A DNA stretch of 64,000 nt, from NCBI GenBank assembly GCA_019347575.1, contig JAHWKY010000020.1, positions 1 through 64,000 of the forward strand. The letters are read 5' to 3'. Position numbers and translations under genes: made by a program. Shown here piece by piece: positions 3,442 through 61,444 of this stretch. Below the pieces are notes generated by a model. That model worked only from the letters and a program-made list of their open reading frames with translations, had not been told where the DNA came from and did no database searches. Position 1 is the first letter of the stretch; the number at the start of each line of letters is the position of its first letter. The DNA comes from Actinomycetota bacterium. GTDB taxonomy: Bacteria; Actinomycetota; Nitriliruptoria; Nitriliruptorales; Nitriliruptoraceae.

Positions 3442-3450
3442 GGCGCGCCC

Positions 3451-3575
3451 CGCTGCCGCTGCCGCGCACCGAGTGGGAGCAGAACGAGGCAGATGGGCCC
3501 CGAACTGCTCCCGCTGGCGCTGCCGCGCACCGAGTGGGAGCGGAACGAGGCAGATACGCCTCGAACTGCTCCCAC
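3451..3575. repeat. Tandem 61-bp hairpin repeat, probable bidirectional terminator
   Basis: Two copies of a 61-bp unit (3451-3511 and 3512-3572) lie between the convergent lipoprotein and hydrolase genes. Each copy contains an inverted repeat: GGGAGCAG pairs with CTGCTCCC in the first, GTGGGAGC with GCTCCCAC in the second. The second copy has an additional inner stem, CGAGGC/GCCTCG. The position and hairpins suggest transcription termination. Confidence 0.6.
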
Positions 3576-3579
3576 TGCT

Positions 3580-6697: not shown

Positions 6698-6703
6698 ACG
6701 CTA
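6698..6703 (-). promoter_or_regulatory. -10 box overlapping the recD stop codon
   Basis: TAGCGT on the minus strand ends 7 nt before ATG 6690. Its first three bases are the TAG stop codon of recD, so the promoter of the next gene uses the stop codon of the previous one. Confidence 0.45.
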
Positions 6704-8653
6704 CCCCCACAACAACTCGCGGAGTCCGGAGTTGCGCGCGACGCCTCGCTCGACCCCGGCACGGACCGAGGCCTCGGTCCCGAGCACGGTGAGGCGCTGT
6801 TGCGCGCGGGTGACTGCGGTGTACAGCAGCTCGCGGGTCAGCACGCGCGAGGTCGGGTCGGGCAAGACGACGACCACGTGGCCGAACTGGCTGCCCTGGC
6901 TCTTGTGGATCGTCATCGCGTGGACCGTCTCGACGTCCTCGAGACGGGTGGGGCGGAACAGGCGCGCCCCGTCCGGTCCGGGGAACGCCACGACGAGGCG
7001 GTCGTCGTCACCCACGACGGTCACGCCCTGGTCGCCGTTCCACAGCCCGAGGCGGCGGTCGTTGCTGGTGACGAGCACGGGGCGGCCCTCGTGCCACGTG
7101 CGGTGGGGGGCGAAGCCCGGTGCGGCCGCTGTGAGCCACGACTCGATCAGTGGCACCCACCCCGAGACGCCGGCGGGGCCCCGGCGGTGCCCGCAGAGCA
7201 CGCGCAGCTCGTGCAGGTGGGCGAGTGCCTCGTCGACGCGCCCAGCCATCGCCGCGCGCACGACCGCCCCGCCGGCGCCGCACACCGCGTCGTGCACCGT
7301 GCCGAGGTGGTCGGCGCTGCGGTCGGCATCTCCGGGCGCGTCGAGCCAGGTCAGGTCGTCGTAGCCGCCGCGCAGCACGTCGACCGCGGTGTCAGCGTCG
7401 CCGGACCTGGCCGCGGTGGCCAGTGCGGCGATCCCCGAGTCTTCGCGGAAGCGGTGCACCCGGGTCAGCACCACGATGCCAGCGGCGATGGCGCCGTGCG
7501 GCTCCGCCGGAGCCGCAGCGGTTCGGGCACCGTCGCTGGCGCGGACCGGTCGCTCCGGATCGCTGCCACCTGCGCCAGCGGTCGCTGCGGGACCGACGAT
7601 GTCGCCGAACACGGTGCCCGCCTCGACCGACTGGAGCTGGTCGGGGTCCCCCACGAGCACGATGCGGGCGTCCTCCCGGAGCGCGTCGAGCAGCTTCGCC
7701 ATGAGCGCGAGCGACACCATCGAGGTCTCGTCGACCACGATGACGTCGTGGGGGAGGGGGTCCTCGGCGCGGTGGCGGAAGCGCGTGGGGTTGCCCGGGT
7801 TCCAACCGAGCAGACGGTGCAGGGTCGTCGCGGTCGACCCGCGTAGCCGGTCGCGCACCTCGTGGGACGTGTCGAGCTCGCCGGCGGCGTCGTGGATCGC
7901 GACCGTCAAGCGGTCGGCGGCCTTCCCGGTCGGTGCGGCCAGGCCGACCCGAGGCGCCCGCGCCCCGCCTACCTCGGCCACCTCGTGCAGCGTCGCGAGT
8001 AGCCGCGCGACCGTGGTGGTCTTGCCCGTGCCCGGCCCGCCGGCGATGACCGCGACCCGGCGGCGGACGCCGGTCTCGGCAGCCACACGCTGGCGATCGT
8101 CGTCCTCGACGCCAGGGAAGAGGCGGTCGAGGATGGCGGCGAGCGCGCGGTCGTCGACCCGCGCCTCGGCGAGCTGCGCCCGCCGCTCCAGCTCGGTCGC
8201 CACACGCCGCTCGTAGCGCCAGTAGCGGTCGAGGTACAGCCGCGTGTCGACGAGCGTGAGCGGCTGGTGCCCGGCGCTCACCGCGTCGAACAGGGTGGGC
8301 TCGCCGTCACGGTCCGGCGTCCCGATCGCGACGGCGGGGGAGCTGCGCACGAGCTCGACCCAGTCGGCGAGGTCGGGCCAGGCCAGCGCGTCGGTGGGAA
8401 CGGTCGCGTCGTCGTCGGGCGCGACCGTGTCGGCGACCGTCGCGAGGTCGGCGCAGACGTGACCGAATCGGGGCGCGCGGACGGTCAGGGCGATCGCGAG
8501 CAGGACGTCGTCGCGGTTCTCGCCGGTCAGCCGGCAGATGACGCGTGCGGCGTGGACGTCCGCGGGTCCGAGGATGCCCGCCGCGTTGAACGGTGCGAGG
8601 CGCTGCGGTGGGCGTGCGACCGAGCGCACGTCGGAGGGTTCGCGCTCGATCAT
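6701..8653 (-). CDS. recD: Exodeoxyribonuclease V alpha subunit RecD
   Basis: A 650-residue superfamily-1B helicase, the fast 5'-3' motor of RecBCD in double-strand-break repair. Walker A is GGPGTGKTTT near residue 204, and Walker B/DEAD-like VIVVDETSM is near 304. GDPDQLQSVEAG follows as motif III, and MTIHKSQGSQF (near 580) and YTAVTRA form the C-terminal helicase motifs. The first 150 residues match the RecD N-terminal domain that contacts RecC. It is the last gene of recC-recB-recD. Its ribosome-binding site is one arm of a perfect hairpin in the recB-recD gap, which may throttle its translation. Confidence 0.95.
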   Translation of the reverse strand: MIEREPSDVRSVARPPQRLAPFNAAGILGPADVHAARVICRLTGENRDDVLLAIALTVRAPRFGHVCADLATVADTVAPDDDATVPTDALAWPDLADWVELVRSSPAVAIGTPDRDGEPTLFDAVSAGHQPLTLVDTRLYLDRYWRYERRVATELERRAQLAEARVDDRALAAILDRLFPGVEDDDRQRVAAETGVRRRVAVIAGGPGTGKTTTVARLLATLHEVAEVGGARAPRVGLAAPTGKAADRLTVAIHDAAGELDTSHEVRDRLRGSTATTLHRLLGWNPGNPTRFRHRAEDPLPHDVIVVDETSMVSLALMAKLLDALREDARIVLVGDPDQLQSVEAGTVFGDIVGPAATAGAGGSDPERPVRASDGARTAAAPAEPHGAIAAGIVVLTRVHRFREDSGIAALATAARSGDADTAVDVLRGGYDDLTWLDAPGDADRSADHLGTVHDAVCGAGGAVVRAAMAGRVDEALAHLHELRVLCGHRRGPAGVSGWVPLIESWLTAAAPGFAPHRTWHEGRPVLVTSNDRRLGLWNGDQGVTVVGDDDRLVVAFPGPDGARLFRPTRLEDVETVHAMTIHKSQGSQFGHVVVVLPDPTSRVLTRELLYTAVTRAQQRLTVLGTEASVRAGVERGVARNSGLRELLWG

Positions 8654-8654
8654 G

Positions 8655-8693
8655 CCTCCCCCCTTGAGGGGGGAGGGGCCGGCGTTGCCGGCC
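8655..8693. promoter_or_regulatory. Two perfect hairpins in the recB-recD gap
   Basis: CCTCCCCCC/GGGGGGAGG (8655-8663 with 8668-8676, TTGA loop on the plus strand) is followed by GGCCGGC/GCCGGCC (8677-8683 with 8687-8693). On the recD mRNA the first hairpin ends immediately before the start codon and contains its purine-rich ribosome-binding site. Confidence 0.6.
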
Positions 8694-8714
8694 TGGGGGG
8701 TGGACTCGGAGTCG

Positions 8715-11700
8715 TCACGCCGCGATCTCGGCGCCGTCGAGCAGGTCGCTGAGTCCGGTCACGAGGGCGCTCGGCGGCCGCCAGGTGAACACTCCGCAGA
8801 CGTCGTCGCCGACCGTGGGCGTGTCCGCGCCCAGCATCCCGCGGACGAACAGGTAGAGCACGCCCCCGAGGTGGCGGGCCGCGTCGTAGCCGGCAACGCG
8901 CCAGCGCAGGTAGCGGTGCAGGGCGGCGCTGTAGAGCAGCGCCTGCAGCGGGTAGTGGCTGTGGCGCATGGCCTCGGCGAGGGCGGCGGGGCGGTAGTGC
9001 CACGCGGTCAGCGGCTCGTCGCGGGGCGCCAGTCGGTTGGTCTTGTGATCGACGACGACGTAGCGATCGTCCACTCGGAGCACCACGTCGATGCTGCCCG
9101 TGAGGAAGCCGCGGAGGTCCCGCTCGAGCATCCAGGTGGGCAGGTCGTCGGCGTAACCGGCGAGGGGGTCGGTGTGGGGGAGGTGGGTGCGGAGCAGGTG
9201 GGCGATGTCACCGACCCGGACCCGCGTCGTGGGCGTGACGCCTCCGGCGAGCGGCAGCTCGAAGGCCATCTCGTCACGCCGGTCGCGGCGGGGGAACGAG
9301 GCGAGCGTCCGCCCGTCGGTCAGAGGGCCGAGGGGGGTCGCGATCACGTGCATCAGTGCCGAGACCCACGGGGCGGCGTCTGCGATGTCGAGTTGGCGCC
9401 GCTGCGCCTGCCGCGCGACGTGGGTCGTCAGCTCGTCGTCGAGGTCGTCGGCGGCCCAGTCGGATCCCTCGAGCACGGCGTGCACGAAGGTGCCGACCTC
9501 GGCTCCGCCAGCCAGATCGCTCCAGGGTGATGCGTGCGCGTGCAACGACGCCAGATCGTCATCCGCCACGAGCGGGATCACGGATGGCTCGTCGTCGGTG
9601 GTGTCGGTCTCGGGTTCGCTGGCGACCTTGCGCTCGACGTCACTACGGGGATCGGCCGCGACCGCGCTGTAGGAGGTGCGGTGCCACGCGGTGTCGATGG
9701 GGCGCTCGAACGGCGCCGCGCGCAGGTCCGGCTGGGCCGCATCCCGGGGCGACCACGGTCCCGCGACCGGCTGCGGTGGTGTGGTCTCGACCACGAACGT
9801 CCCCTCGGCACGTCCCTCGATGGAGCGGCACAGCTCGAGGATGCGGTCGTCGTCGAGCACCCGCGAGGGGTTGGTCGTCACGCACGTGTCGCGCCCCACC
9901 CGGTTCAACAGCACCCGCCCCATCGCGGACCACTCGGGCTTGCCGGCGGGGGCGTAGTAGGCGACGACCTGGTGCTCGGCGCGGGTGAGCGCGACGTAGA
10001 GCAGCCGCAGCTGCTCGCCGCGCTCCTCGTGCTCGGCGCGTTCCCGGTGCGCGTTCGCCTCGGGTGTGTCCTCCCCGCCGACGTCGATCGTGCGCGCCCC
10101 GTCGGGGCCGTGGAAGGAGTGGATGTCGGTCTCGAACCCGCCGGACGACCACAGGAAGGGCACGTAGACGATGGGGAACTGCAGGCCTTTGGCACGGTGG
10201 ATGGTGAGGATCTGCACCGCGTCGTCGTCCGATTCGAGCCGGCGCAGCTTCTCGTCGTCGCCTTCGGCGGTGCGACGCGCCTCGTCGATGCGCGCCCGCA
10301 GCCACGACGTCAGCGCCGTGGGTCCGAGATGCTCGGCCGCGGCGGCCGCGTGGAGCTGCTCGCCGATGTGCTCGAGGTCGGTGACGTGGCGCTCGCCATC
10401 GGGGCGACCGAGCAGCCGCGCGTGGACCCGCTGCTGCAGGACCACGGTCCGCAGCAGCGAGGTGACATCGCGGTTGCGCAGCACGTCGGTCCAGTGGTGG
10501 ACCGCGTCGTGCAGGTCGTCCCAGTCGTCGTCGCTGGCTGCCGCGACACGGTCACCGTTCCAGCCCACGAACGCCGACAGCGCCAGGGCCCGGACCCGCG
10601 CCCCCGACGCGGGGCGCTCGATCGCCTCGAGCAGCCGGAGCCAGTCGCTCGCCGCGGCGGTCTCGAACACGCTGCCGACACCGTTGATGATCGCGGGCAC
10701 GCCCGCGGCCACGAGCGCGGCGTGGACGCGCGCGGCCTCGTCGTTGCTGCGCACCAGCACGGCGACGTCGCCGGGGGCGACGCGGTCCCGGCGCTCGGTG
10801 CCGTCGGCGTCGCGGTCGACGATGTGGGCATCGGAGGACAGCAACGTGACGATGTCGTCGGCGACGTCATCGGCGATGTGGTTGCGCGCCTGGTCGGCGT
10901 TGATCTTGCGCTGGTACACGCGCATCCGATCGTGACGGGGGACCAGGCGCAGACGGAAGGCCGCGTCGACCGGCGCCCCCACGAGCCTCGGGTCGGCGTG
11001 CGCGGGCGCGTGATCGACCGGGCGGAACGCGATGTCGTCCTCGCCGAACGTCGCGCCCGCCAGGACGCACTCGAGGGCTCGCAGCAGGCGCGCGTCGGAG
11101 CGCCAGTTGGTCCCCAGCGTCCGGCGCGTGACCGATGGCGTGCGGACGGCGGCGAGGTAGGCGTACACGTCCGCGCCACGGAAGGCGTAGATGGCCTGCT
11201 TGGGATCTCCGATGAGCACGAGCGCGGAGCCGTCGGCATCCTCGAACGTGGCCCGCAGGATGTCCCACTGCACCGGGTCGGTGTCCTGGAACTCGTCGAT
11301 CAACGCGATCGTGTAGTGGTCGCGGATCGCCCTGCGCACGTCGTGCCCGCGCGCCTCGTCGAGGACGGCCGCACGCAGCCGCGTGAGCAGGTCGTCGTAG
11401 CTGATGCGGCGGCTGCGACGCTTGCGTCGTTCGGCGTCGTCGCGGATCGCGTACGCGAGGTCGACCCGCAGCCGCGCGATGGGGTTGTCGGTCTGGAGGG
11501 GTAGCAGCGGGGTGATGGGGTTGCCCATCACCACACGGGCGATCTCGAGCGCCTTCCGGCGAGGCAACTGCCCATCGCCGCCACCGTGGAAGCGCCGGAC
11601 GAGGCAGTCGTCGACGGTCTCCTCGACGAGGTCCGCGAGGTCCTCGACCAGCTCGGCATCGCGCTCCAGGTCGCTGGCCAGCCCCAGGCCCTGCAGTACG

Positions 11701-12092
11701 TGCTGGCAGAAGCCGTGGATCGTGCTGATCGTCGCGGCGTCGAACTCCGTCAGCGCCTCGCTCAGGCGGGCGTGACGCAGAGCCAGCTCGTCGTCCTCGA
11801 CGTCGGCGATCAGCCCGAGCACCGGATCGCTGGTAGACGGCGCCCCGCCCGCCAGTACGGCCTCGAGGTGGGTCGTGGCGGTCACGAGACGACGCCGCAC
11901 GCGTTCGCGCAGTTCCGCGGTCGCCGCGCGCGTGAAGGTGAGGATGAGCAGCTGGGGCAGCCGCGCGTGTCCTTCGGCGACGTAGCGGGTGGCGAGGCCG
12001 GCGATGGTGTAGGTCTTGCCGGTGCCCGCGCTCGCCTCGAGGACGGTCGTGCCCCGAGGGAGCGGGTCGGTCAGCGACATGACGTCCGTCAC
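8715..12092 (-). CDS. recB: Exodeoxyribonuclease V beta subunit RecB
   Basis: A 1125-residue helicase-nuclease. ASAGTGKTY near the N-terminus is Walker A, LTFTRAATAELRERV is motif Ia, and IDEFQDTDPVQW is the UvrD-type motif II. LTIHRAKGLQFPIVYVP and YVALTRAEHQ are motifs V and VI. The C-terminal SIDVVLR...YVVVDHKTN is the PD-(D/E)XK nuclease site of RecB. GTG 12092 overlaps the recC TGA (GTGA), and AAGGA lies 6 nt before it, so the two subunits are probably translationally coupled. An ATG 12 nt further in (MSLTDPLPRG) is an alternative start. Confidence 0.95.
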   Translation of the reverse strand: MTDVMSLTDPLPRGTTVLEASAGTGKTYTIAGLATRYVAEGHARLPQLLILTFTRAATAELRERVRRRLVTATTHLEAVLAGGAPSTSDPVLGLIADVEDDELALRHARLSEALTEFDAATISTIHGFCQHVLQGLGLASDLERDAELVEDLADLVEETVDDCLVRRFHGGGDGQLPRRKALEIARVVMGNPITPLLPLQTDNPIARLRVDLAYAIRDDAERRKRRSRRISYDDLLTRLRAAVLDEARGHDVRRAIRDHYTIALIDEFQDTDPVQWDILRATFEDADGSALVLIGDPKQAIYAFRGADVYAYLAAVRTPSVTRRTLGTNWRSDARLLRALECVLAGATFGEDDIAFRPVDHAPAHADPRLVGAPVDAAFRLRLVPRHDRMRVYQRKINADQARNHIADDVADDIVTLLSSDAHIVDRDADGTERRDRVAPGDVAVLVRSNDEAARVHAALVAAGVPAIINGVGSVFETAAASDWLRLLEAIERPASGARVRALALSAFVGWNGDRVAAASDDDWDDLHDAVHHWTDVLRNRDVTSLLRTVVLQQRVHARLLGRPDGERHVTDLEHIGEQLHAAAAAEHLGPTALTSWLRARIDEARRTAEGDDEKLRRLESDDDAVQILTIHRAKGLQFPIVYVPFLWSSGGFETDIHSFHGPDGARTIDVGGEDTPEANAHRERAEHEERGEQLRLLYVALTRAEHQVVAYYAPAGKPEWSAMGRVLLNRVGRDTCVTTNPSRVLDDDRILELCRSIEGRAEGTFVVETTPPQPVAGPWSPRDAAQPDLRAAPFERPIDTAWHRTSYSAVAADPRSDVERKVASEPETDTTDDEPSVIPLVADDDLASLHAHASPWSDLAGGAEVGTFVHAVLEGSDWAADDLDDELTTHVARQAQRRQLDIADAAPWVSALMHVIATPLGPLTDGRTLASFPRRDRRDEMAFELPLAGGVTPTTRVRVGDIAHLLRTHLPHTDPLAGYADDLPTWMLERDLRGFLTGSIDVVLRVDDRYVVVDHKTNRLAPRDEPLTAWHYRPAALAEAMRHSHYPLQALLYSAALHRYLRWRVAGYDAARHLGGVLYLFVRGMLGADTPTVGDDVCGVFTWRPPSALVTGLSDLLDGAEIAA

Positions 12093-15000
12093 GACAGATC
12101 CTTCACGGTCTCGCAGCTGACCAGGGGGTGCCACAGGCTCGCGGCGAGGTGCAGCAGACGGCTGTCCTGGTCGATCTGGCTCAGCAGCGCCGCCTCGACC
12201 TTCTTGGCCTCGTCGGCGATCAGGTCGAGAGGTGGGGGATCGGTCTTGCGGTGCAGCCACTCCGCCCGCTCGAGAGCGGCCCGCGACACGAGGGCTGCCA
12301 GCGCATCGCTGCGCTCGTCGTCGCGCACCGACCGGCGTGCGAGGTCGGCGAACGGTAGAGCGCGCCCGAACGCCAGCACGTGGTAGTCATCGGCGTTCTC
12401 CGACCACGATCGGTACGGCGTCGCCTCCCAGCGCTTGGTGGCGTAGGCGTCCGGCGGCTTGTTGTGCAGGATCGACTCGAGGCACGCCAGCGCGGTGTCG
12501 CACGGCAGCGGCAGCGGCTCGCACAGTCCCCGGTCGTACAGGGCGACGAGCCGCTGCAGGTGCATCCGCGCGTCGTCGTGGCTGGTACCGGTGAGGACCG
12601 ACACCGATGCCCCGTCCCCGCCGCGCTGGCGCCGCCCCGCCGTCACGACCGTGAGGTCTCGGTCAGGCTGAGCGACCGTGGCGGCCAGCAGGTGCACCCA
12701 CGACTCCAACCGATGCTTGGCGCCGAGCCGGCTGTAGCGCAGCGCCGTCGCGACGGCGCCCCGGACGCCGGAGATCGCCCCGACGATCGTGCGCCCGTCG
12801 TCGAGGTCGACGGTGACGTCGAGCGTCTCACCTGCGCCGGGCTTGGCGCCGTGGTCGGCTGCGAGCGCCAGGATCGAGTCGGTCGTGGCAGTGATCTCGC
12901 TGAGGTCCTCGTCGGCGAGCGCCCCGGGAGGCAGCACGCCCCGAGCGCGGAGCGTCGCGATCACGTGGTCGCGCTCGTGACCCGCGATCGCGGCGTCGAT
13001 GAAGCGCTGGCCGACCTCCCACTTGGCCAACCCGTCGAGATCGATCGGGATGGCGTCGGAGGGCTCCTCGGCGCTCGACGGCAGCGACACCTGCATGCGC
13101 GTCCGCACGAACGCCTTGACCGGATGGGCCAGGAACGCGATCAGATCGCGCAGCTCGATGGTGTCCGCGTCGTCGGCGGAGGTCAGCGGGGCGGTGAGGA
13201 AGGCCGGTGCGGGCTCGCGCTCGGCCAACGACGCGCGCGCGGCGTCCAACCCGTCGGCGTCGAAGCTCCAGGGGCCAGGGACCCCGAGCATGCCGTCGCG
13301 GTAGTTGCGCGCGTCGAACGGCTGCAGCGGGTGGTGGATGGTGATGCGCTCGCTGGCCGGACCACCGTCCGACGTGCGCACGCTGCGGTCGATGACATCG
13401 CACAGCTCGCCGAGAGGGACCGCCGGTGGACGCGGCTCGTTGGTGCGCTCGTCACGGGCGCGGTAGGTCACGATGAGCTGCTCGGTGGCGGCGAGGACGG
13501 CGTCGAGCAGCAGCTGACGGTCCTCGGAACGGGGGTCGCGATCGCCGACGCGGGGCGCGCGGTCCACGAGGTCGTCGCTGTCGGAGATACTGCGGCGTGG
13601 GAAGCTCTCGTCATCCAGCCCGAGCAGGCACACGAGGCGGTGGGGGACCGAACGCATCGGGACGAGCGTGCACACGACCAGGTCACCGGTGCGCTGCCCG
13701 GCACGGCTCGGCCGCCCCGCGAGCCGGTCGGCGAGCAGCGAGCGCACCTCGGCCAGCGACAACGGCACCGCACTGGGCACACCGTCGCGCGACGCCTCGG
13801 CGACGACGTCGTCGAGCACGTTCGCGAGCTGCACGCGCTGCCAGCGCGTCTCGAAGCGGGTGGCGGTCAGCGCGTCGGCGACCGCGGTGATCGCGCCGCG
13901 CCACGCCCCGATGGGCTGGCCGGCGCGCAGCGACGCGACGGCGTCGGCGAGCCGCTCGACGAACTCGACGAAGCGTCCACCGAGGTCGACATCGGTGCCC
14001 TCGATGCCGTCGTAGGGGGCGGTGTCACCCACCAGGCGGAACTCCTCGTCGGCCATGGCGACCCCGAGGAGCAGTCGGTCGAGCCCGGCACGCCACGAGT
14101 TGGCGTCGATCGGGGGCAGGTCGTGCTCGGCGCGGTGAGCCCCGTCTATGCCCCAGCGGACGTTGAGGTCGGCGACCCACGCCTCGAGGCGCTCGACCGC
14201 GTCGTCGTCGAAGCCGAAGCGGTCCCGGACCGGCTCGCGGGTGGCGAGATCGAGCACCTCGGACGCGGTGAGCCGGCCGTCGGCGAGATCGAGCAGGTCC
14301 GCGACGACGCGGAGCAGCGGGTTGGTGCGCCGGATCGAACGGTCGGCCAACCGCACCCGCAGGTCGGGTCGGCCGGGACGGTCGTCGTCCGCGACGGCCT
14401 GGGCTCCGAAGACGGCCTCGATCAGCGGGGCGAAGTCCTCGATGTCGGGGCACATCACGATGATGTCGCGCGGTTCGAGCGTGGGGTCGTCGGCGAGGGC
14501 GTGCAGGACGGCGTCGCGGAGCACCTCGACCTGTCGCGTGCGGCCGTGGCAGCCGTGGATCTGCACCGACCGGTCGTGCTCGTCGAGGGCGGGGCGCTCG
14601 GCGCCGAGCGCCGGCAGCGGCCGGTCCTCGACGATGTCCCGCTGCAACCGACCCAACAACGTGAGCGGTTGCGACCCTCCTGCGGATCTCCGTTCGGGCT
14701 CGACGCGAGGCGCCATCGACGGCGCGGATGCGCGGTCGCCAGAGGAGAGCACGAGTTGCATCTCGCGGGCGTCGCGGCCCCACGAGCGCACGATCGGGTG
14801 CCGTGCCGCCTCGCGGGTGGGGTCGTGCTCGCGCAAGGGCAGGGTCGCCCCGTCGGTGCGCTCGCGGATGGCATCCCAGAGCACGGGCGAGGAGTGGAGC
14901 AGCAACAGGTGCACGTCGCGGTGCAGCGCCAGGGCCTCGAGCACCTCGACCGAGCTCGCGGGGATGGCGGTCAGACCGAACAGCGCGATGCGCTCGGGCA

Positions 15001-24859: not shown

Positions 24860-25098
24860 CTACTGCCGACGGCTCACGGTGGGTCGGACGTCGGGGTTGA
24901 ACACCGCGATCTCCTCGGTCGGCGGCAGGCAGTCCTCGGGATGTCCACGTCGAGCACGTCGGGCCACAGGTAGTCCCCACCACCGCTGACCTCGTCGCCG
25001 ACCGATGCCTCCCCCCCGGACGGCAGGCGCACGACGAGTGGGTCGGGTGACGCGATGGTGGTCCCGTGTGGACACACCACGGGGTACCCCGCGTCCAC
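24860..25098 (-). pseudogene. Frameshifted small gene, family unknown
   Basis: On the minus strand, coding-like sequence runs from a region near GTG 25098 through PHGTTIASPDPLVVRL, PSGGEASVGDEVSGGG and DYLWPDVLDVDIP. It then continues in another frame as EDCLPPTEEIAVFNPDVR to a TAG at 24860-24862. One extra base in the C-run near 24940 would restore a single protein of about 75 residues. The upstream end runs into a tandem repeat, which may mark where the gene was broken. It could also be a sequencing error. No family is recognised. The gap between the helicase and PhoD genes holds only this, the palindrome and the tandem repeat. Confidence 0.5.
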
Positions 25099-25257
25099 GC
25101 GCGTTCCCGTCAGCGGCCGGGGCGGGGCGGGGGCGAGCGTCCCGACGCAACCACGCGTCCACGCGCGTTTCCGTCAGCGGCGGGCGTGGCGGGGGCGAGC
25201 GTCCCGACGCAACCACGCGTCCACGCGCGTTTCCGTCAGCGGCGGGCGTGGCCGGGC
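25092..25257. repeat. Tandem repeat, 62-64 bp unit, about 2.6 copies
   Basis: Units start at 25092, 25156 and 25218, each beginning CGTCCACGCGCGTT and containing CCGTCAGCGGC. The last copy is cut by the 3' end of phoD. The first copy differs most (length 64, several changes), so the array is ageing or has moved. No promoter or terminator is obvious. Confidence 0.75.
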
Positions 25258-37597: not shown

Positions 37598-37614
37598 ATC
37601 CACCTCCCCGCGCT

Positions 37615-37673
37615 GTGCTACCGCTTCGCTACTTGAGCACTGTCGCTGTGCTACCGCTTCGCTGCTTGAGCAC
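37615..37673. repeat. Structured repeat family, array A (2 units)
   Basis: Two 26-bp cores at 37615-37640 and 37648-37673, period 33 bp, oriented minus. Each has an outer stem GTGCT/AGCAC and inner GC-GAA-GC. They lie between the CoA-transferase start and the MarP-like stop. Confidence 0.85.
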
Positions 37674-37699
37674 TGGCGGGCGTGACGGTACCGGGTTGC

Positions 37700-42496: not shown

Positions 42497-42541
42497 CGCG
42501 GCACGCGTGGCAGGATGCGCGACACGGAGCGGGAGGTCGGT

Positions 42542-43393
42542 GTGCGGGTCGGAGTGGGTCTGCCCACCACCACGCCCCGCGACGATCCCGCCGTCCTGCT
42601 CGACTGGGCGCGCGACGCCGAGGCCGGTCCGTTCACGAGCCTCGGCGTGGTGGACCGGGTCGTCTACGACAGCCACGATCCGCTGACCACGCTCGCGGCT
42701 GCCGCGGCCGTCACCGAGCGGGTACGTCTGGTGACGATGATCGCCATCGCCCCGATCCGCAACGCCACCATCCTCGCCAAGCAGGCCGCGTCCATCGATG
42801 CGCTCTCGGGTGGACGGCTGGTGCTCGGCCTGTCGTTGGGGGCACGCGAGGACGACTACCTCGCGACCGGTGCCGCGTGGCGTGACCGCGGGCGCAGCTT
42901 CGACCGCCAGCTCGCCCGCATCCGCGAGGTGTGGGAGGACCCGGCGATCGGACCTCACGGAGGGGCGCAGGACGGACCGCCCCTCCTGGTCGGTGGGGGA
43001 AGCGCCCCCGCGTTCCTGCGGACCGCGCGGTCCGCCGATGGCTACGTCCACGGAGGCGGCCCTCCACGAGCGTTCGACAGTGCGGCATCACACGCGCGCA
43101 GCGCGTGGGTCGATGCGGGGCGACCCGGCGAGCCGCAGCTGTGGGGCCAGTCGTACTTCACGCTGACCGACCCGGACGCCGGTGACGCCTACCTGCGCGA
43201 CTACTACGCCTTCACCGGCGCGTTCGCCGAGCGCATCGCCGCCGACCTACTCACCTCCCCCGAGGCGGTGCAGGACCGCGTCCGCGGCTACCGCGACGCC
43301 GGCTGCCAGGAACTCGTGCTGCTTCCTGCCACCTCCGATCCCTCCGAGCTGTCCCGCCTGGCCGAGGCCGTCGCCCCGGTGGTGAACGGGTGA
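42542..43393 (+). CDS. LLM-class (luciferase-like) flavin-dependent oxidoreductase
   Basis: A 283-residue TIM-barrel protein using FMN or F420. It shows VRVGVGLPTTTPRDDP, DRVVYDSHDPLTTLAAAAAVTERVRLVTMIAIAPIRNATILAKQAASIDALSGGRLVLGLSLGAREDDYLATG and the C-terminal helices. GTG 42542 has GGGAGG 5 nt upstream. It is first in a five-gene operon with the two-domain flavoprotein, SDR, enoyl-CoA hydratase and RidA. A monooxygenase or reductase step in the ring-degrading pathway is plausible, but no substrate is shown. Confidence 0.85.
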   Translation: MRVGVGLPTTTPRDDPAVLLDWARDAEAGPFTSLGVVDRVVYDSHDPLTTLAAAAAVTERVRLVTMIAIAPIRNATILAKQAASIDALSGGRLVLGLSLGAREDDYLATGAAWRDRGRSFDRQLARIREVWEDPAIGPHGGAQDGPPLLVGGGSAPAFLRTARSADGYVHGGGPPRAFDSAASHARSAWVDAGRPGEPQLWGQSYFTLTDPDAGDAYLRDYYAFTGAFAERIAADLLTSPEAVQDRVRGYRDAGCQELVLLPATSDPSELSRLAEAVAPVVNG

Positions 43394-45540
43394 GGGTCGC
43401 CATCGTCGGAGGTGGACCGGCCGGGCTCTACCTGGCGATCCTGCTCCTGCGTGACGAACCTGGCCACGATGTCGTCGTCTTCGAGCAGAACCCCCGAGGC
43501 GCGACGTTCGGCTGGGGCGTCGTGTTCAGCGAGGACACCCTGACCGAGCTGCGTGACGCCGACTACGAGACCTGGCTCGACCTCGACCGCCACCTCGTGC
43601 GCTGGGGTGGCATCGACATCCACCGCCACGACGAGACGGTACGTGCGAGCGGCCACGGCTTCTCCGCCATCCGGCGCCTGACGCTGCTGCAGCGTCTGGC
43701 TGCACGTGCCACCGCACTCGGCGCCGATGTGCGCTACGAGACGGCGGCCGACGCGCTCGTCCTCAGCGACGAGTACGACGTCGTCGTGGCGGCCGATGGC
43801 GTGCACAGCCCGACGCGCCAGCAGCTGCAGAAGGAGTTCGGGAGCTCCGACGCGGAGCACGGTGGCACCTTCGCCTGGTTCGGCACCGACCACGTCTTCG
43901 AGGTGTTCACGTTCATCTTCCGCGAGACCGACCACGGCCTGTTCACGGTCCACGCCTACCCGTTCGACGCCGGCTTCAGCACGTTCATCGTCGAATGCGA
44001 CCACGACACGTGGCGGCGCGCCGGACTGGACACGATGACCGAGGACGACAGCCTGGCGTTCTGCCACGACCTGTTCGCCGATCACCTGCGGGGCGGGAGG
44101 CTGCTGTCGAACCGGTCGGTGTGGCGGCGCTTCACCACCGTGCGCAACCGCTCGTGGCACCACCGCAACGTCGTGCTGGTGGGGGACGCGGCGCACACCG
44201 CCCACTTCTCGATCGGGTCGGGGACCAAGCTCGCGATGGAGGACGCGATCGCGTTGTCGAAGGCCTTCGTCGCGCACCCCGGCGATCCGGATGCGGCCTT
44301 CACCGACTACGAGCTCGAGCGTCAGGGACCGGTCGAGCGCTTCCAGGAAGCCGCCATCGACAGCGCCGACTACTTCCTCGCGCTCGTGCGCGGCCGCTAC
44401 CGCGGTCTGTCGCGCGAGCAGTTCGTGTTCAACCTCCTCACGCGCAGCGGACGCATCCTGCGCAGCGACCTGCAGCAGCGCGATCCCCGCACCGTCGCGG
44501 CGGTCGACCGCAACCTCCGTCATCGCAGCAGCGGTGAGACCCGCCTGATCGGCGCCCCGCCCTCGCTCGCGAGCTTCCGCGTCGGGTCGCTGGTCCTCGC
44601 CAACCGCATCGCGTTGCAGCCGCCTCCCGGTGACACCGCTCGCGAAGGCACGCCCGGGACACCCGAGTTCGCGACGTACGGCCGCGCCGCCGCGACCGGT
44701 GCCGGGCTGATCATCACCGAGCCCGTCGCCATCTCGGCACACGGCCGGGTCACCAGCGGCTCCCCGGGTCTGTACCGGGATGAGCACGTCGCGGCGTGGC
44801 GCCGCATCGTCGAGACCGTCCACGGAGAGGGCGCGGTCATCGCGGCCCGCCTGGGTCACTCGGGGCGGCGGGGCGCGACCCGGCCCCGTCAGCGCGGCCT
44901 GGACCGTCCGCTTCGCGACCACGCCTGGACGGTGCCGGCGCCGTCACCGCTGCCGTACACCCCGTGGAGCCAGGAGCCGGCAACAGCGGAGGCGGACGGC
45001 TCGGTGATCGAGGACGTGCGTCGGGCCGCCCACCGGGCGCGCGAGGCCGGCTTCGACCTGCTGCTCCTGGATGCCTCCGACGGCTACCTGTTCGCGAGCT
45101 ACCTGTCCCCGCTGACCAACCACCGCGACGACCACTACGGGGGCGACCTGCTGTCGCGGCTGCGGTACCCCCTCGAGGCGTTCGCCGCGGCCCACGAGGG
45201 TTGGGGCGAGGGACCCGTCGGTGTGCGGCTCACGGTCGACGACCGCGTGCCCGGCGGGCTCACCGCCGACGACGGCGTCGAGCTCGCACGCGCGTTCGTC
45301 GACGCCGGAGCGGCCCTGGTGGCCGTCGCCGCGGGCCACACCGTCCCGCGCATCTCGACCTCGCAGACCTACCGGCGACGGTTCCTGGTGCCGCTGGCCG
45401 ACCGGATCCGCAACGAGGCCGGGGCGCGGACTCTCGTCGGAGGCAACGTGACCACCTTCGACGAGATCGACACCATCGTCGCAGCGGGGCGCGCCGATCT
45501 CGTGGTGCTCGACCCCGTGCGCTTCCTGGAGGAGAGCTGA
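43390..45540 (+). CDS. Bifunctional FAD monooxygenase/OYE-type reductase (2-aminobenzoyl-CoA or salicylyl-CoA type)
   Basis: A 716-residue fusion. Residues 1-380 are a class A flavin hydroxylase with RVAIVGGGPAGLYLAILLL, VVAADGVHSP and LVGDAAHTAHFSIGSGTKLAMEDA (near 265). From about 386 to the end is an old-yellow-enzyme reductase: GSLVLANRIALQPP, AARLGHSGRRG, LSPLTNHRDDHYGGDLLSRLRYPLEAF and RADLVVLDPVRFLEE. Two characterised enzymes have this architecture: 2-aminobenzoyl-CoA monooxygenase/reductase, which hydroxylates and then reduces the ring of anthraniloyl-CoA, and salicylyl-CoA 5-hydroxylase. The nearby kyn genes favour the former. GTG 43390 overlaps the upstream stop (GTGA); the stop touches the SDR start (TGATG). 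Confidence 0.85.
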   Translation: MRVAIVGGGPAGLYLAILLLRDEPGHDVVVFEQNPRGATFGWGVVFSEDTLTELRDADYETWLDLDRHLVRWGGIDIHRHDETVRASGHGFSAIRRLTLLQRLAARATALGADVRYETAADALVLSDEYDVVVAADGVHSPTRQQLQKEFGSSDAEHGGTFAWFGTDHVFEVFTFIFRETDHGLFTVHAYPFDAGFSTFIVECDHDTWRRAGLDTMTEDDSLAFCHDLFADHLRGGRLLSNRSVWRRFTTVRNRSWHHRNVVLVGDAAHTAHFSIGSGTKLAMEDAIALSKAFVAHPGDPDAAFTDYELERQGPVERFQEAAIDSADYFLALVRGRYRGLSREQFVFNLLTRSGRILRSDLQQRDPRTVAAVDRNLRHRSSGETRLIGAPPSLASFRVGSLVLANRIALQPPPGDTAREGTPGTPEFATYGRAAATGAGLIITEPVAISAHGRVTSGSPGLYRDEHVAAWRRIVETVHGEGAVIAARLGHSGRRGATRPRQRGLDRPLRDHAWTVPAPSPLPYTPWSQEPATAEADGSVIEDVRRAAHRAREAGFDLLLLDASDGYLFASYLSPLTNHRDDHYGGDLLSRLRYPLEAFAAAHEGWGEGPVGVRLTVDDRVPGGLTADDGVELARAFVDAGAALVAVAAGHTVPRISTSQTYRRRFLVPLADRIRNEAGARTLVGGNVTTFDEIDTIVAAGRADLVVLDPVRFLEES

Positions 45541-46277
45541 TGGGCCGCACCGCTGTCGTCACGGGAGGCAACAAGGGCATCGGCCGCGCGGTGGCCGCCC
45601 GCCTGGTCGAGCTCGGCCACGACGTCACGGTGACCGGCCGGGACGAGCAGGCCCTGTCGGCGGTCGCGTCCGAGCTGGGGGTGCAGACAGCCGCGTTCGA
45701 CATCACCGACGAGGACGCGGTGGGGGCGTTCTTCGACGGCCGCTCGGTGGACATCCTGGTGGCGAACGCGGGGCGCGATCTTGCTGCGCCGGTGCACCGC
45801 ACCAGCCTCGAGGACTGGAACACGATCCTGGCGATCAACGCGACCGGGGTTTTCCTCTGCATGCGCGCCGTCATCCCCGGGATGAAGGAGCGTGGGTGGG
45901 GCCGTATCGTCACCCTGGCTTCGGTGGCGGGGGTGCAGGGCATGCGCTACACGGGCGCCTACGCCGCCTCGAAGCACGCGGCCGTGGGGTTGACCAGGGC
46001 TGCCGCGCACGAGCTCATCGGGACCGGCGTTACCGCCAACGCGGTCTGCCCGGCGTTCGTCCGCACCGAGATGGTCGAGCGCACGCTCGCGAACATCCAG
46101 CAGCGCACGGGGCGCTCCGAGGACGACGCCTTGCGCGATCTGCTGCAGGTCCAGGCCCTCCCGCGTCTCATCGAGCCCCAGGAGGTGGCCGCGGCCGTCG
46201 CCTACCTCGCCTCCGAGGACTCAGGCGCGGTCAACGGGCAGACGATCGTGATCGAGGGCGGGGAGGTGCAGCGGTGA
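45540..46277 (+). CDS. SDR-family dehydrogenase
   Basis: A 245-residue SDR: TAVVTGGNKGIGRAVAARL, SVDILVANAGRD, RIVTLASVAGVQGM (Ser), YAASKHAAVGL (Tyr, Lys) and VNGQTIVIEGG at the end. It is of 3-oxoacyl/3-hydroxyacyl-CoA dehydrogenase style. ATG 45540 shares its A with the preceding TGA (TGATG), and GGAGGAGAG lies just upstream. It probably oxidises or reduces an alcohol intermediate between the flavoprotein and hydratase steps. The last bases of the gene are duplicated 56 bp downstream. Confidence 0.87.
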   Translation: MGRTAVVTGGNKGIGRAVAARLVELGHDVTVTGRDEQALSAVASELGVQTAAFDITDEDAVGAFFDGRSVDILVANAGRDLAAPVHRTSLEDWNTILAINATGVFLCMRAVIPGMKERGWGRIVTLASVAGVQGMRYTGAYAASKHAAVGLTRAAAHELIGTGVTANAVCPAFVRTEMVERTLANIQQRTGRSEDDALRDLLQVQALPRLIEPQEVAAAVAYLASEDSGAVNGQTIVIEGGEVQR

Positions 46278-46343
46278 GCGGCTTCCGGTGCTCGGTTCCG
46301 GCGAGCGTGGACGGTCGCGAGGTGCAGCGGTGAGCGGCTTCCG
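46263..46343 (+). repeat. 56-bp tandem duplication of a translation-start region
   Basis: A 25-bp sequence containing GAGGTG (ribosome binding), the end of the SDR gene and GTGAGC occurs at 46263-46287 and again at 46319-46343. The offset of 56 bp is not a multiple of three, so only the second GTG is in frame with the hydratase. Confidence 0.85.
46274..46333 (+). CDS. Possible 19-residue leader peptide created by duplication
   Basis: The first GTG (46274), which overlaps the SDR stop, opens a 19-codon frame ending EVQR and TGA at 46331-46333. That stop overlaps the GTG of the hydratase (GTGA). The peptide has no family and would exist only if ribosomes use the old start. It could act as a coupling device: ribosomes terminating here could re-initiate on the hydratase. 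Confidence 0.3.
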   Translation: MSGFRCSVPASVDGREVQR

Positions 46344-47160
46344 TGCGTCCGCGCCGCTGACCTCCGACTGGGAACACCTGCGGTTCGAGGTTTCGCAGCG
46401 CGTGGGCACCGTGACGTTCACACGCCCCGACAAGCTGAACGCGCTGACGCTCGACGTGTACGCCGACCTGCGCGACCTGCTGGCCGAGATCGAGCATCGC
46501 GGTGACGTCGATGCGCTGGTGATCGCGGGGGAGGGGCGCGGATTCTGTGCCGGCGGCGACGTCCACGCGATCATCGGGGCGCTGCTCGAGCGGGGCGACA
46601 AGCGCGAGGTGTTCGCGTTCACGCGCATGACCGGGGCGGTCGTGCAGCGGATGCGCGAGCTGCCGGTGCCGATCGTCGCCGCGGTCAACGGCGTGGCGGC
46701 GGGGGCCGGGGCGGTCATCGCACTGGCCGCCGACCTGCGCGTGCTGGCGCGGTCGGCGAGCTTCCGGTTCCTGTTCACCCAGGTCGGCCTAGCCGGCGCC
46801 GACATGGGGTGCGCCTACCTACTGCCGCGGGTCGTGGGGCTGGGGCGGGCGACCGAGATGCTGCTGCTCGGTGACGCCGTCGACGCCGAGTCGGCCGAGC
46901 GCTACGGGTTGGCGAACCGGGTCGTCGATGACGACGCGCTGATGTCGGAGGTGTCGGCGCTGGCGCGGCGGCTGGCCGACGGGCCGACGTGGGCGGTGGC
47001 CGCGACCAAGAACCTGCTCACGCGCGAGCAGGACACCTCGCTCGGGGCCGCCATCGACCTCGAGGCGTGGACCCAGGCGTTCCTGATGACGGCTGAGGAC
47101 CACGCGGAGTTCTACGCCGCGTTCCAGGCGGGGCGCGACCCCCAGTGGCGCGGCCGCTGA
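46330..47160 (+). CDS. Enoyl-CoA hydratase/isomerase
   Basis: A 276-residue crotonase protein: FEVSQRVGTVTFTRPDKLNALTLDVY, LVIAGEGRGFCAGGDVHAI (oxyanion hole), VPIVAAVNGVAAGAGAVIALAADLRVLA, FLFTQVGLAGADMGCAYLLPRVVG (the usual catalytic Glu is Gly-Ala-Asp here) and AATKNLL. GTG 46330 is the second copy of a duplicated start; the ribosome-binding GAGGTG is 7 nt upstream. In 2-aminobenzoyl-CoA degradation such enzymes handle ring-derived enoyl-CoA and sometimes cleave the ring. It is followed by RidA. Confidence 0.87.
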   Translation: MSGFRASAPLTSDWEHLRFEVSQRVGTVTFTRPDKLNALTLDVYADLRDLLAEIEHRGDVDALVIAGEGRGFCAGGDVHAIIGALLERGDKREVFAFTRMTGAVVQRMRELPVPIVAAVNGVAAGAGAVIALAADLRVLARSASFRFLFTQVGLAGADMGCAYLLPRVVGLGRATEMLLLGDAVDAESAERYGLANRVVDDDALMSEVSALARRLADGPTWAVAATKNLLTREQDTSLGAAIDLEAWTQAFLMTAEDHAEFYAAFQAGRDPQWRGR

Positions 47161-47174
47161 CGAGAGGTGAAGCG

Positions 47175-47588
47175 ATGACGACCGGACACCGGCTGATCAA
47201 CCCCGACGGGTTGCTGCCTCCCAAGGGCTTCAGCCACGTGACCGTCCCGCTCCCGGGGCGGCTGGTGTTCGTCGCGGGACAGACGGCGCACGACGCGGAC
47301 GGCAACATCGACGACGGCTCGATGGCGGGTCAGGCGGCTGCAGCGCTACGCAACCTCGCCACCGCCGTGGCGGCTGCCGGGGCCAGCCCCGATCAGCTTG
47401 TGTCGCTGCAGATCTTCGTGACCGACGTCGCCGCTTACCGCGACGCGCTCGGGCCGATCGGTGAGGCGTGGCGCGAGCACCTCGGGGCGCACTACCCGGC
47501 GGTGTCGCTGTTCGGCGTCACCGAGCTGTTCGACCCCGAGGCCTCCATCGAGATCGTCGCCACCGCCGTCATCCCCGGCCCCACCTGA
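47175..47588 (+). CDS. RidA/YjgF-family enamine/imine deaminase
   Basis: A 137-residue chorismate-mutase-like trimeric protein: PKGFSHVTVPLPGRLVFVAGQTAHDADGNI, MAGQAAAALRNLATAVAAAGASPDQLVSLQIFVTD, YPAVSLFGVTELFDPEASIEIVATAVI. RidA proteins hydrolyse reactive enamines to ketones and ammonia. The product expected from 2-aminobenzoyl-CoA monooxygenase/reductase is an enamine, so a RidA in this operon is chemically sensible; that link is inference. ATG 47175 has GAGAGGTGA 4 nt upstream. It is last in the operon starting at 42542. Confidence 0.87.
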   Translation: MTTGHRLINPDGLLPPKGFSHVTVPLPGRLVFVAGQTAHDADGNIDDGSMAGQAAAALRNLATAVAAAGASPDQLVSLQIFVTDVAAYRDALGPIGEAWREHLGAHYPAVSLFGVTELFDPEASIEIVATAVIPGPT

Positions 47589-52147: not shown

Positions 52148-53755
52148 TCAGCGGAGGCGCAGCGCCCCGACCCCGGCGAGCACCAGACCGAGGAACGCCA
52201 GCCCGGCCCCGGTGGTTGGCAGCGGAGGACCGTCCGGGGCGGGGTCAGGCGCCGGAGGCGGAGCGGGAGCCGGTGCACCACCACCCGCGGACCGGAACGC
52301 CACGCAGTCGTCGAGCGGTTCGCCGGCGACGCTGTGCCGCGACGCGCGCTCGTCGAGCAGCAACCCGATCACCGGCTCCGCGGTCTGGCCCATGTCCACG
52401 AACACGCCGGCGTCGACCCCAGCGGACCCGATGTCGTGGAGTTCGAAGGCGGTCCCGACTGTCTCGGCCTGGTCTGCGGTGAGCAGGTAGCCACACGGCG
52501 GCGGGTCGGCGAACGACGTCGACTCGGCCTGGCCCGTGCCGGTTACCGTCGTGTCCTCGAACTGGCCGTTGAAGAACAGCGGGGCGCTGCGGTCCTCGCC
52601 CTCCTGCTCCTTGACGACGCGGGACTCCTCGGCGGTCGCGCGGACCTGCTCGCCGTTGGCTCGGTAGTACTCCAGCGTGCACTCCATGACGCGGTAGTGG
52701 CCATCCACGCGGCGGTTCTGGTTCGCCGCGGAGTCGAGTTCGCCGGTCGGGTTGCGCGGGTCGGGCAGCAAGCCCGACTCGATCAGGATCCCGAGGCTGT
52801 GCCGCAGCCCCGCGGCGTTGCGCGAGATCCCCTCGTCCGGTCCTCCGGCGGTCTGGGTCAGGTCCTGGTCGCCGAACTCGTTGATGCCGTACTCGTCGCC
52901 GCTGAACCCCTCCTCCTCGAGGCAAGGATCGATGTGGTCCTGCAGGAACGTCTTCGCCAGGTCGCGTACTGGCTTGTGGACGTTGAGGTTGCGGGGCCAC
53001 ATGTAGGTGATGTGGTCGTCGTAGAACAGCGGGGTCTGGCCGTACTCGTGGTGGTCGAGGGCCATGTCCGGGGTCCAGTCACGGATCACACGGGCGATGG
53101 CGCGTGCCTCGAGCGTCTCGAGGTTGAGGTGGTCGCGGTTGATGTCGATGCCGTCGGCGTTCCACCGGGTGTTGGCCTCGCGGCCGTCGGGGTTCGCGGT
53201 CGGCATGAAGATGATCGTGTGGTCCTCGAGCTGGCTCACGAGCGTGGGGTCGTCGGTGAACGCGAGATCACGGATCCAGCGCAGGCACCCTTCACGCGGC
53301 GCCGGCTCGTTGCCGTGCTGGGTGCAGAAGATGAACACGGTCGGCTCCTCCTGCGCTGCTTCGACACCGCGGGGCGTGGGGTGGCCGACCTCGACGAGGT
53401 GCAGCGGCCTGCCCTGGACGCTCTCGCCGACGACGCTGACCTCGACGCGGTCGGACCCGTCGGCAACCGCCTCGAGGAAGGCCAGCTCGCCCTCGTGCGA
53501 GGTCCACTCGGCCCCGCCGCTGGCCTCGAACTCGGTGGTCGGCGGTCCGTCCTGGGCGAGCGCCGGCAGCGCGATCGATCCGGCGAGCAGCAGCGATGAG
53601 GCGACGATGACAGCACGGAACCTGTGCTCAAGCAGCGAAGTGGTGGCACGGAGCCTGTGCTCAAGCAGCGAAGTGGTGGCACGGAGCCTGTGCTCAAGCA
53701 GCGAAGCGGTAGCACGGAGCCTGTGCTCAAGCAGCGAAGCGGTAGCACGGAGCAA
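52148..53755 (-). CDS. LPTTG-anchored M14 zinc carboxypeptidase with repeat-derived N-terminus
   Basis: A 535-residue exported peptidase. TTG 53755 has GAGAGGG 5 nt upstream. Residues 5-48 are four 11-residue units (TASLLEHRLRA-like) encoded by the 33-bp repeat. A signal segment (VIVASSLLLAGSIALPALAQ) follows. Catalytic zinc motif TQHGNEP (His147, Glu150), the second His in ALDHHEYGQ, and the catalytic Glu in LGILIESG are present, so it is likely active. The C-terminus is Pro/Ala-rich, then LPTTG (512-516), a hydrophobic helix and RLR, a sortase signal. Without the repeats the N-terminus would read MLRAVIVASS. No other in-frame ATG, GTG or TTG lies before the signal. Confidence 0.85.
   Translation of the reverse strand: MLRATASLLEHRLRATASLLEHRLRATTSLLEHRLRATTSLLEHRFRAVIVASSLLLAGSIALPALAQDGPPTTEFEASGGAEWTSHEGELAFLEAVADGSDRVEVSVVGESVQGRPLHLVEVGHPTPRGVEAAQEEPTVFIFCTQHGNEPAPREGCLRWIRDLAFTDDPTLVSQLEDHTIIFMPTANPDGREANTRWNADGIDINRDHLNLETLEARAIARVIRDWTPDMALDHHEYGQTPLFYDDHITYMWPRNLNVHKPVRDLAKTFLQDHIDPCLEEEGFSGDEYGINEFGDQDLTQTAGGPDEGISRNAAGLRHSLGILIESGLLPDPRNPTGELDSAANQNRRVDGHYRVMECTLEYYRANGEQVRATAEESRVVKEQEGEDRSAPLFFNGQFEDTTVTGTGQAESTSFADPPPCGYLLTADQAETVGTAFELHDIGSAGVDAGVFVDMGQTAEPVIGLLLDERASRHSVAGEPLDDCVAFRSAGGGAPAPAPPPAPDPAPDGPPLPTTGAGLAFLGLVLAGVGALRLR
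53624..53748. repeat. Structured repeat family, array B (4 units, in frame in carboxypeptidase)
   Basis: 26-bp cores begin at 53624, 53657, 53690 and 53723, period exactly 33 bp. All four lie inside the N-terminal codons of the M14 carboxypeptidase and contain no stop in that frame. Confidence 0.9.
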
Positions 53756-56854: not shown

Positions 56855-57411
56855 CGACGATCCAGCGCGTGTGCGTCTTCTGCGGCACCTCGGCGGGTGA
56901 CGACGAGGTATACGCCGACGCCGCTCGCGACTTCGGCACCGCCCTCGCCGAAGCGGGCATCGACCTCGTCTACGGCGGGTCGAGCCTCGGCATGATGCGG
57001 CTCGTCGCCGACGCCGTCCTCGACCGGGGCCGTCAGGTGATCGGGGTGATGCCGCGTCACCTGACCGACCGCGACGTCCCCTACGAACGCGCCACCGAGC
57101 TGCACCTCACCGAGACCATGCACGAGCGCAAGGCCCACATGTTCGAGCTCGCCGACGCGTTCGTGGCGCTGCCGGGCGGGCTGGGCACGCTCGACGAGCT
57201 CATGGAGATCTCGACCTGGGCCCAGCTCGGCCTGCACGACAAACCCATCGCGATCCTCAACGTCGCGGGCTACTTCGACCAGCTGGCCTCGTGGCTGGAC
57301 CACGCCGTCGAGCACACCTTCCTGGCTCCGCGCCACCGCGAGCGGATCGCCGTCCTCGACGACCTCGCTGCTCTGCTCCACTACCTGAGTGCTCAGGTAG
57401 CGAAGCGGTAG
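56851..57411 (+). CDS. LOG-family protein (nucleotide phosphoribohydrolase)
   Basis: A 186-residue Rossmann-like protein: RVCVFCGTSAGDDEVYADAARDFGTALAEAGIDLVYGGSSLGMM, VIGVMPRHLTDRDVPYERATELHLTETMHERKAHMFELADAFVALPGGLGTLDELMEISTWAQLG. PGGLGTLDE is the catalytic signature of LOG proteins, which release free bases from nucleoside monophosphates. GTG 56851 overlaps the decarboxylase TGA. Its last eight residues (LSAQVAKR) and TAG stop are encoded by the structured repeat, so the natural C-terminus was probably changed by repeat insertion. Confidence 0.88.
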   Translation: MTTIQRVCVFCGTSAGDDEVYADAARDFGTALAEAGIDLVYGGSSLGMMRLVADAVLDRGRQVIGVMPRHLTDRDVPYERATELHLTETMHERKAHMFELADAFVALPGGLGTLDELMEISTWAQLGLHDKPIAILNVAGYFDQLASWLDHAVEHTFLAPRHRERIAVLDDLAALLHYLSAQVAKR

Positions 57412-57480
57412 CACGACGTGAGTGCTCAGGTAGCGAAGCGGTAGCACGACGTGAGTGCTCAGGTAGCGAAGCGGTAGCAC
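57389..57480. repeat. Structured repeat family, array C (3 units)
   Basis: 26-bp cores at 57389, 57422 and 57455, period 33 bp, plus orientation. The first core carries the stop codon of the LOG gene. Confidence 0.9.
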
Positions 57481-57512
57481 GACGTGTACCACCGGACCCG
57501 GGGAGGCGATCC

Positions 57513-60001: not shown

Positions 60002-60011
60002 CCTCTTGGGT

Positions 60012-60071
60012 GTGCTATCGCTTCGCTTCTTGAGCACTTTCGGGTGTGCTACCGCTTCGCTGCTTGAGCAC
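60012..60071. repeat. Structured repeat family, array E (2 units)
   Basis: 26-bp cores at 60012-60037 and 60046-60071, spaced 34 bp, minus orientation. They lie between the exonuclease start and the oxidase stop. Confidence 0.85.
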
Positions 60072-60093
60072 TCTTGCGTCAGCACGCACGACC

Positions 60094-61242: not shown

Positions 61243-61444
61243 GCCCGCTCACTTCCGTCCGACGGCTGCGACCTGGACGAGCCTACGGCCAGCACCGCCA
61301 CGACGACGTGATACCTCGACCCCGACTCCCGACGAGACGAACCGGGTGTGGGGCGGTCGGATGACTTCCTCCAAGCCGCGGCGACCGGCTGCGCCGCGAA
61401 GTACGGTTCGTCGGTCGGGCGGCGTCAACGGGGAGATCGCCACC

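Follow-up and report, generated by a model that had tools for sequence, protein, structure and literature searches.

A duplicated stop/start junction and its 19-codon relay frame between an SDR gene and a hydratase gene of an actinomycetotal bacterium

What happens to an operon when the stop/start overlap between two of its genes is present twice? The question is raised by a junction in a member of the Nitriliruptoraceae (Actinomycetota; assembly GCA_019347575.1), within positions 1 to 64,000 of contig JAHWKY010000020.1, a stretch of 64,000 nucleotides referred to here as the window. Between the genes for an SDR-family dehydrogenase and an enoyl-CoA hydratase family protein lies a 19-codon open reading frame with a -4 overlap at each end. 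The preferred reading, given a probability of about 0.6, is a near-neutral local duplication of an SD sequence and the adjoining GTGA, in which coupling was kept and the short frame (the relay) arose as a by-product.

The duplicated junction

The genes of the run are ordered LLM oxidoreductase, FAD/FMN fusion enzyme, SDR, hydratase and RidA. The first two overlap at 43390-43393, and the fusion gene meets the SDR gene in a TGATG (45538-45542). By sequence the run resembles an operon for the degradation of CoA-bound aromatic compounds; the score of the fusion enzyme does not reach the cutoff of the NCBIfam model that it fits best. The features of the run are:

42515-43393, plus strand: luciferase-like (LLM) oxidoreductase, first gene of the coupled run
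43390-45540, plus strand: fusion of FAD-binding and FMN oxidoreductase parts, like salicylyl-CoA/2-aminobenzoyl-CoA hydroxylase (NF006101, 748 bits, below the cutoff of 1078)
45540-46277, plus strand: SDR-family dehydrogenase, 245 codons, TGA stop at 46275-46277 (frame read; Pfam adh_short_C2, 2.7e-50)
46263-46287, plus strand: repeat copy 1, 25 bp, with SD-like GAGGTG, the last SDR codons, GTGA and the first relay codons
46274-46333, plus strand: relay frame, 19 codons, VSGFRCSVPASVDGREVQR and stop, in -4 overlap with each neighbour
46288-46318, plus strand: inner segment, 31 bp, with no second occurrence in the assembly when 3 mismatches are allowed
46319-46343, plus strand: repeat copy 2, 25 bp, with SD-like GAGGTG, the end of the relay frame, GTGA and the first hydratase codons
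46330-47160, plus strand: enoyl-CoA hydratase family protein, 276 codons from GTG 46330 (NCBIfam NF006107, 363.8 bits against a cutoff of 330)
47175-47588, plus strand: RidA-family protein, the next operon gene after the hydratase (Pfam Ribonuc_L-PSP, 6.2e-21)

The GTG at 46274 overlaps the TGA of the SDR gene, and the frame that starts there ends in a TGA at 46331-46333 that is overlapped by the hydratase GTG at 46330, just as a preliminary description of this DNA had reported. The hydratase start is backed by N-terminal conservation (FR-x-S) in 15 relatives. A start at the in-frame GTG at 46288 is unlikely, since no SD-like sequence is seen by eye 5' of it and the conservation sets in near 46330. 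With the textbook anti-SD sequence, pairing is predicted at -14.7 kcal/mol for copy 1 (relay) and -9.6 for copy 2 (hydratase); the range predicted in ten relatives is -4.5 to -15.4 kcal/mol. The 3' end of the 16S rRNA was sought in the assembly and not found.

The comparison set consists of fifteen loci whose hydratases are 61-71% identical to this one. An SDR C-terminus, identified from the frames, lies directly 5' of the hydratase in 11 of the 15. Seven of these junctions are a -4 [AG]TGA overlap (L004, L005, L006, L007, L010, L012 and L013), and in the other four the genes are separated by about 25 nt (L008, L009, L014 and L015). The preliminary description had called for a look at the same junction in related genomes; when the 90 bases 5' of each start were inspected by eye, a second copy was present in none of the fifteen.

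The repeat, GAGGTGCAGCGGTGAGCGGCTTCCG, is exact over 25 bp (46263-46287 and 46319-46343, spacing 56) and, with up to 3 mismatches allowed, has no further occurrence in the 4.89-Mb assembly. It exceeds chance: the longest local repeats in six third-order Markov simulations of 464 kb, matched in size and third-order composition to a 464-kb sample of the genome, were 15-16 bp. The event was originally described as a 56-bp duplication. The duplicated junction is real, but identity extends over 25 bp only and 56 is the spacing. At that offset 15 of the other 31 positions match where 8.7 are expected, a level reached by 1.5% of window positions.

The arrangement had also been called uncommon, a term that does not suit this genome as far as short local duplications are concerned. 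A hand count of the 464-kb sample gave about 25 loci with exact local repeats of at least 20 bp, 20-300 bp apart. In the sample, repeats of at least 20 bp have distances between 26 and 202, and a spacing of 56 is unique to the SDR/hydratase junction. Nor is the relay geometry rare in the genome. A relay scan of the same sample gave 18 hits, of which not every one is genuine. Judged by eye, two resemble ribosomal protein genes; another two represent one frame, three carry a 65-bp element described below, and the SDR/hydratase relay is itself among the hits. In a junction survey of ten rows, the distances at non-element junctions leave a remainder of 2, 1 or 0 mod 3 in 5, 2 and 1 cases, respectively, very few rows from which to read a preference. 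Short frames that overlap each neighbour through NTGA and lack the 65-bp element also occur at 61308-61364 of the window (plus strand) and at 13206-13307 of sample locus L122 (minus strand); both may be due to chance.

Other repeats are found in the window. Tandem duplications of 62 bp and 61 bp lie at 25086-25256 and 3449-3578, and 62-bp repeats with a palindrome like GGACCCGGTAGCCGGGTCC also occur in sample loci L116 and L126. A second dispersed repeat, with the core GTGCTCAAGTAGCGAAGCGGTAGCAC, forms tandem arrays with a period of about 31-39 bp at 37611-37675, 53612-53753, 57379-57486 and 60008-60072 of the window, as well as in loci L114 and L126.

A 65-bp family at coupled junctions

The relay scan of the 464-kb sample also surfaced a near-identical short frame at separate junctions. 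It belongs to a 65-bp family whose core pattern matches 60 copies in the assembly, 30 per strand; the reversed pattern, used as a control, has zero matches there. The copies form 37 arrays of 1-3 units, mostly 65 bp apart (arrays in L140-L187). Of these arrays, 34 start and 35 end at [AGT]TGA. Relay chains are unbroken in 27 of the 37, usually with 22 codons per unit; in 20 of the 27, the retrieved DNA contains an open frame of 90 codons or more on each side of the array. Among the ten non-relay arrays, five have a frame or indel change, two lack the 5' overlap, one is without the 3' overlap, and two run into the end of a contig.

One copy is in the window:

8650-8718, minus strand: 65-bp element with relay frame VTTPSPPPRPATPAPPPSRGEA and stop, between a recB-like gene (8715-12260) and a recD-like gene (6701-8653)

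The flanking genes encode a UvrD/PDDEXK (recB-like) protein and a RecD-like protein. Relatives of the RecD-like gene are present in 31 of 41 genomes, this one counted, and the recB/recD junction is a plain -4 overlap in 14/14 other loci fetched.

The 65-bp unit has a predicted hairpin in which the SD-like GGGGGGAGG pairs with CCTCCCCCC. Translation of the short frame would open this hairpin, which would make the 65-bp relay close to obligatory. A pattern for such a hairpin immediately 5' of RTGA is found 47 times in this genome, once in each of three others and not at all in the other 62 of the 66 genomes of the class. The 65-bp core itself is absent from the other 34 genomes of the family, the other 65 of the class and the other 395 sampled from the phylum, and no match was found in viral contigs or plasmids. 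The SDR/hydratase unit is not a copy of this family, since its core and its inner part are both confined to that one junction in the assembly. The 65-bp family is more interesting than the duplication first singled out in the window and merits a study of its own.

Origin and effect of the second copy

A local duplication would have copied the SD and the GTGA stop/start overlap between the two genes. The SDR gene would then keep the stop of copy 1 and the hydratase gene take the start of copy 2, so that neither protein is altered. With a spacing of 2 mod 3, what lies between the copies reads as a 19-codon frame; barring an intervening stop, an in-frame relay arises at one duplication length in three. 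Ribosomes finishing the SDR gene at 46275-46277 would start again at GTG 46274 and read the relay to its stop at 46331-46333, where a second reinitiation, at GTG 46330, would follow; direct initiation from the second SD would be a parallel route to the hydratase. Translation of the leader and a regulatory role for it are hypothetical. The earlier claim that coupling is preserved through a relay stands as far as the geometry is present and the hydratase start is supported, but the preservation is true almost by construction: each copy has an SD, a stop and a start, so any tandem duplication across a GTGA spares the SDR stop and the hydratase start. Most likely the event was near-neutral, and hydratase output shifted little at most.

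How the inner 31 bp originated bears on this reading. Relay residues 1-11 (VSGFRCSVPAS) read like the hydratase N-terminus, where relatives have FR-A/G/S-S, and the final eight residues (VDGREVQR) read like the SDR C-terminus, IEGGEVQR. Outside the exact core, and measured against random frames, the resemblance of residues 6-11 (CSVPAS) to the hydratase N-terminal profile has a P of 0.022 and that of residues 11-14 (SVDG) to the SDR C-terminus a P of 0.15; the summed resemblance has a P of 0.019. This double likeness, together with the match at 15 of the 31 inner positions (P about 0.015), weakly favours duplication of a whole 56-bp tandem unit whose middle later decayed. A possible objection comes from the contrast in changes, 0 of 23 at free core positions vs 16 of 31 in the inner part (Fisher 1.5e-5), a lead only, as the 23 free positions were counted by hand and the core boundaries drawn from the data. 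Taken as such, it would count against simple neutral decay of the inner 31 bp and point to selection on both initiation regions, to copy conversion or to a filler origin. The last of these, a 25-bp duplication joined by 31 bp of unrelated sequence, for example through templated end joining, would have the same neutral outcome. It would account for identical cores around a very different middle without selection, and the inner resemblance reaches a P of about 0.015-0.02 and no stronger. Yet the rest of the assembly, searched with 3 mismatches allowed, offers no template for the 31 bp, partial matches of 16-17 nt in the sample are such as chance would be expected to give at this GC, and the inner part is in register with the hydratase N-terminus plus the SDR C-terminus. 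Filler is considered unlikely.

Selection on both SD/GTGA modules would imply a relay that sets the hydratase:SDR ratio, in the manner of a bicistronic design or a MIRU-type unit. Perfect cores flanking a diverged inner segment are what such a role would leave, and the 27 relay-forming arrays of the 65-bp element show that relays are at least tolerated in this genome. Against it, nothing special about the peptide is apparent by eye, and the relay has no counterpart in relatives. The folding of the duplicated stretch is ordinary (z -1.36 and 0.06) and Rfam has no match at E up to 1 over 45500-47000, on which grounds an attenuator or structured regulatory leader was rejected as well; a functional relay is quite unlikely. 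An assembly artefact, from a strain mixture or k-mer joining, comes to mind with a genome in 120 contigs and an estimated contamination of 4.59%. The site is, however, interior to an 85-kb contig, 56 is not a recurring repeat distance in the sample, and the two copies have different middles, which is not what k-mer joining gives. Ordinary short reads can contain a span of 81 bp, the length of the whole duplicated stretch, and such an artefact is very improbable. The near-neutral duplication with its relay as by-product is retained as the main reading.

Known systems and meaning

The relay is a variant of a known arrangement, closest to the mycobacterial MIRUs and to synthetic bicistronic designs. 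In a bicistronic design (BCD) a short leader frame carries the SD of the next gene and ends overlapping its start. BCD cassettes share with the relay a leader frame that holds the downstream SD and an end that overlaps the next start; they are engineered and placed at the 5' end of a transcript, whereas the relay is natural and lies between two genes. MIRUs, according to a 2025 review, are short units at a start codon with an internal frame coupled at -4 to the gene, and expression is thought to be little changed (PMC12548453). They are dispersed repeats, reported at 41 locations in M. tuberculosis H37Rv (PMC2734929). The 56-bp unit is like a MIRU in its internal frame coupled at -4 (NTGA) spacing and unlike one in being built of its own flanks at a single locus, with no dispersed copies. 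The 65-bp family has dispersed units in the 40-100-bp range, tandem in places, inserted at stop/start overlaps with a -4 coupled frame. This is the anatomy given for mycobacterial MIRUs in the review, with which it was compared by description (PMC12548453). Another short frame between two operon genes is mgtQ of Salmonella, located between mgtC and mgtB, which affects translation of the second gene (PMC8092293). It is reported to work through alternative stem-loops and ribosome-destabilising residues, neither of which is seen at the relay (PMC8092293). A literature search that covered papers free of subscription found only mycobacterial descriptions of elements at coupled junctions.

The junction is a clear example of how copying an NTGA overlap does no harm, by the way it is built, and provides a relay frame at no cost. 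A speculative and improbable extension is that the junction is a newborn coupling unit: duplication of an NTGA at 2 mod 3 would make in one step a module of start, short frame, SD and stop/start that could lie harmlessly between any pair of coupled genes, and MIRU-like families could begin in this way and then spread. If this were true, the genome would show both ends of the process: the birth of a unit in place at 46274-46333 and, in the 60-copy family with its hairpin-locked SD, the mature stage. Together, the duplication and the MIRU-like family bear on the origin and tolerance of elements that target translationally coupled junctions.
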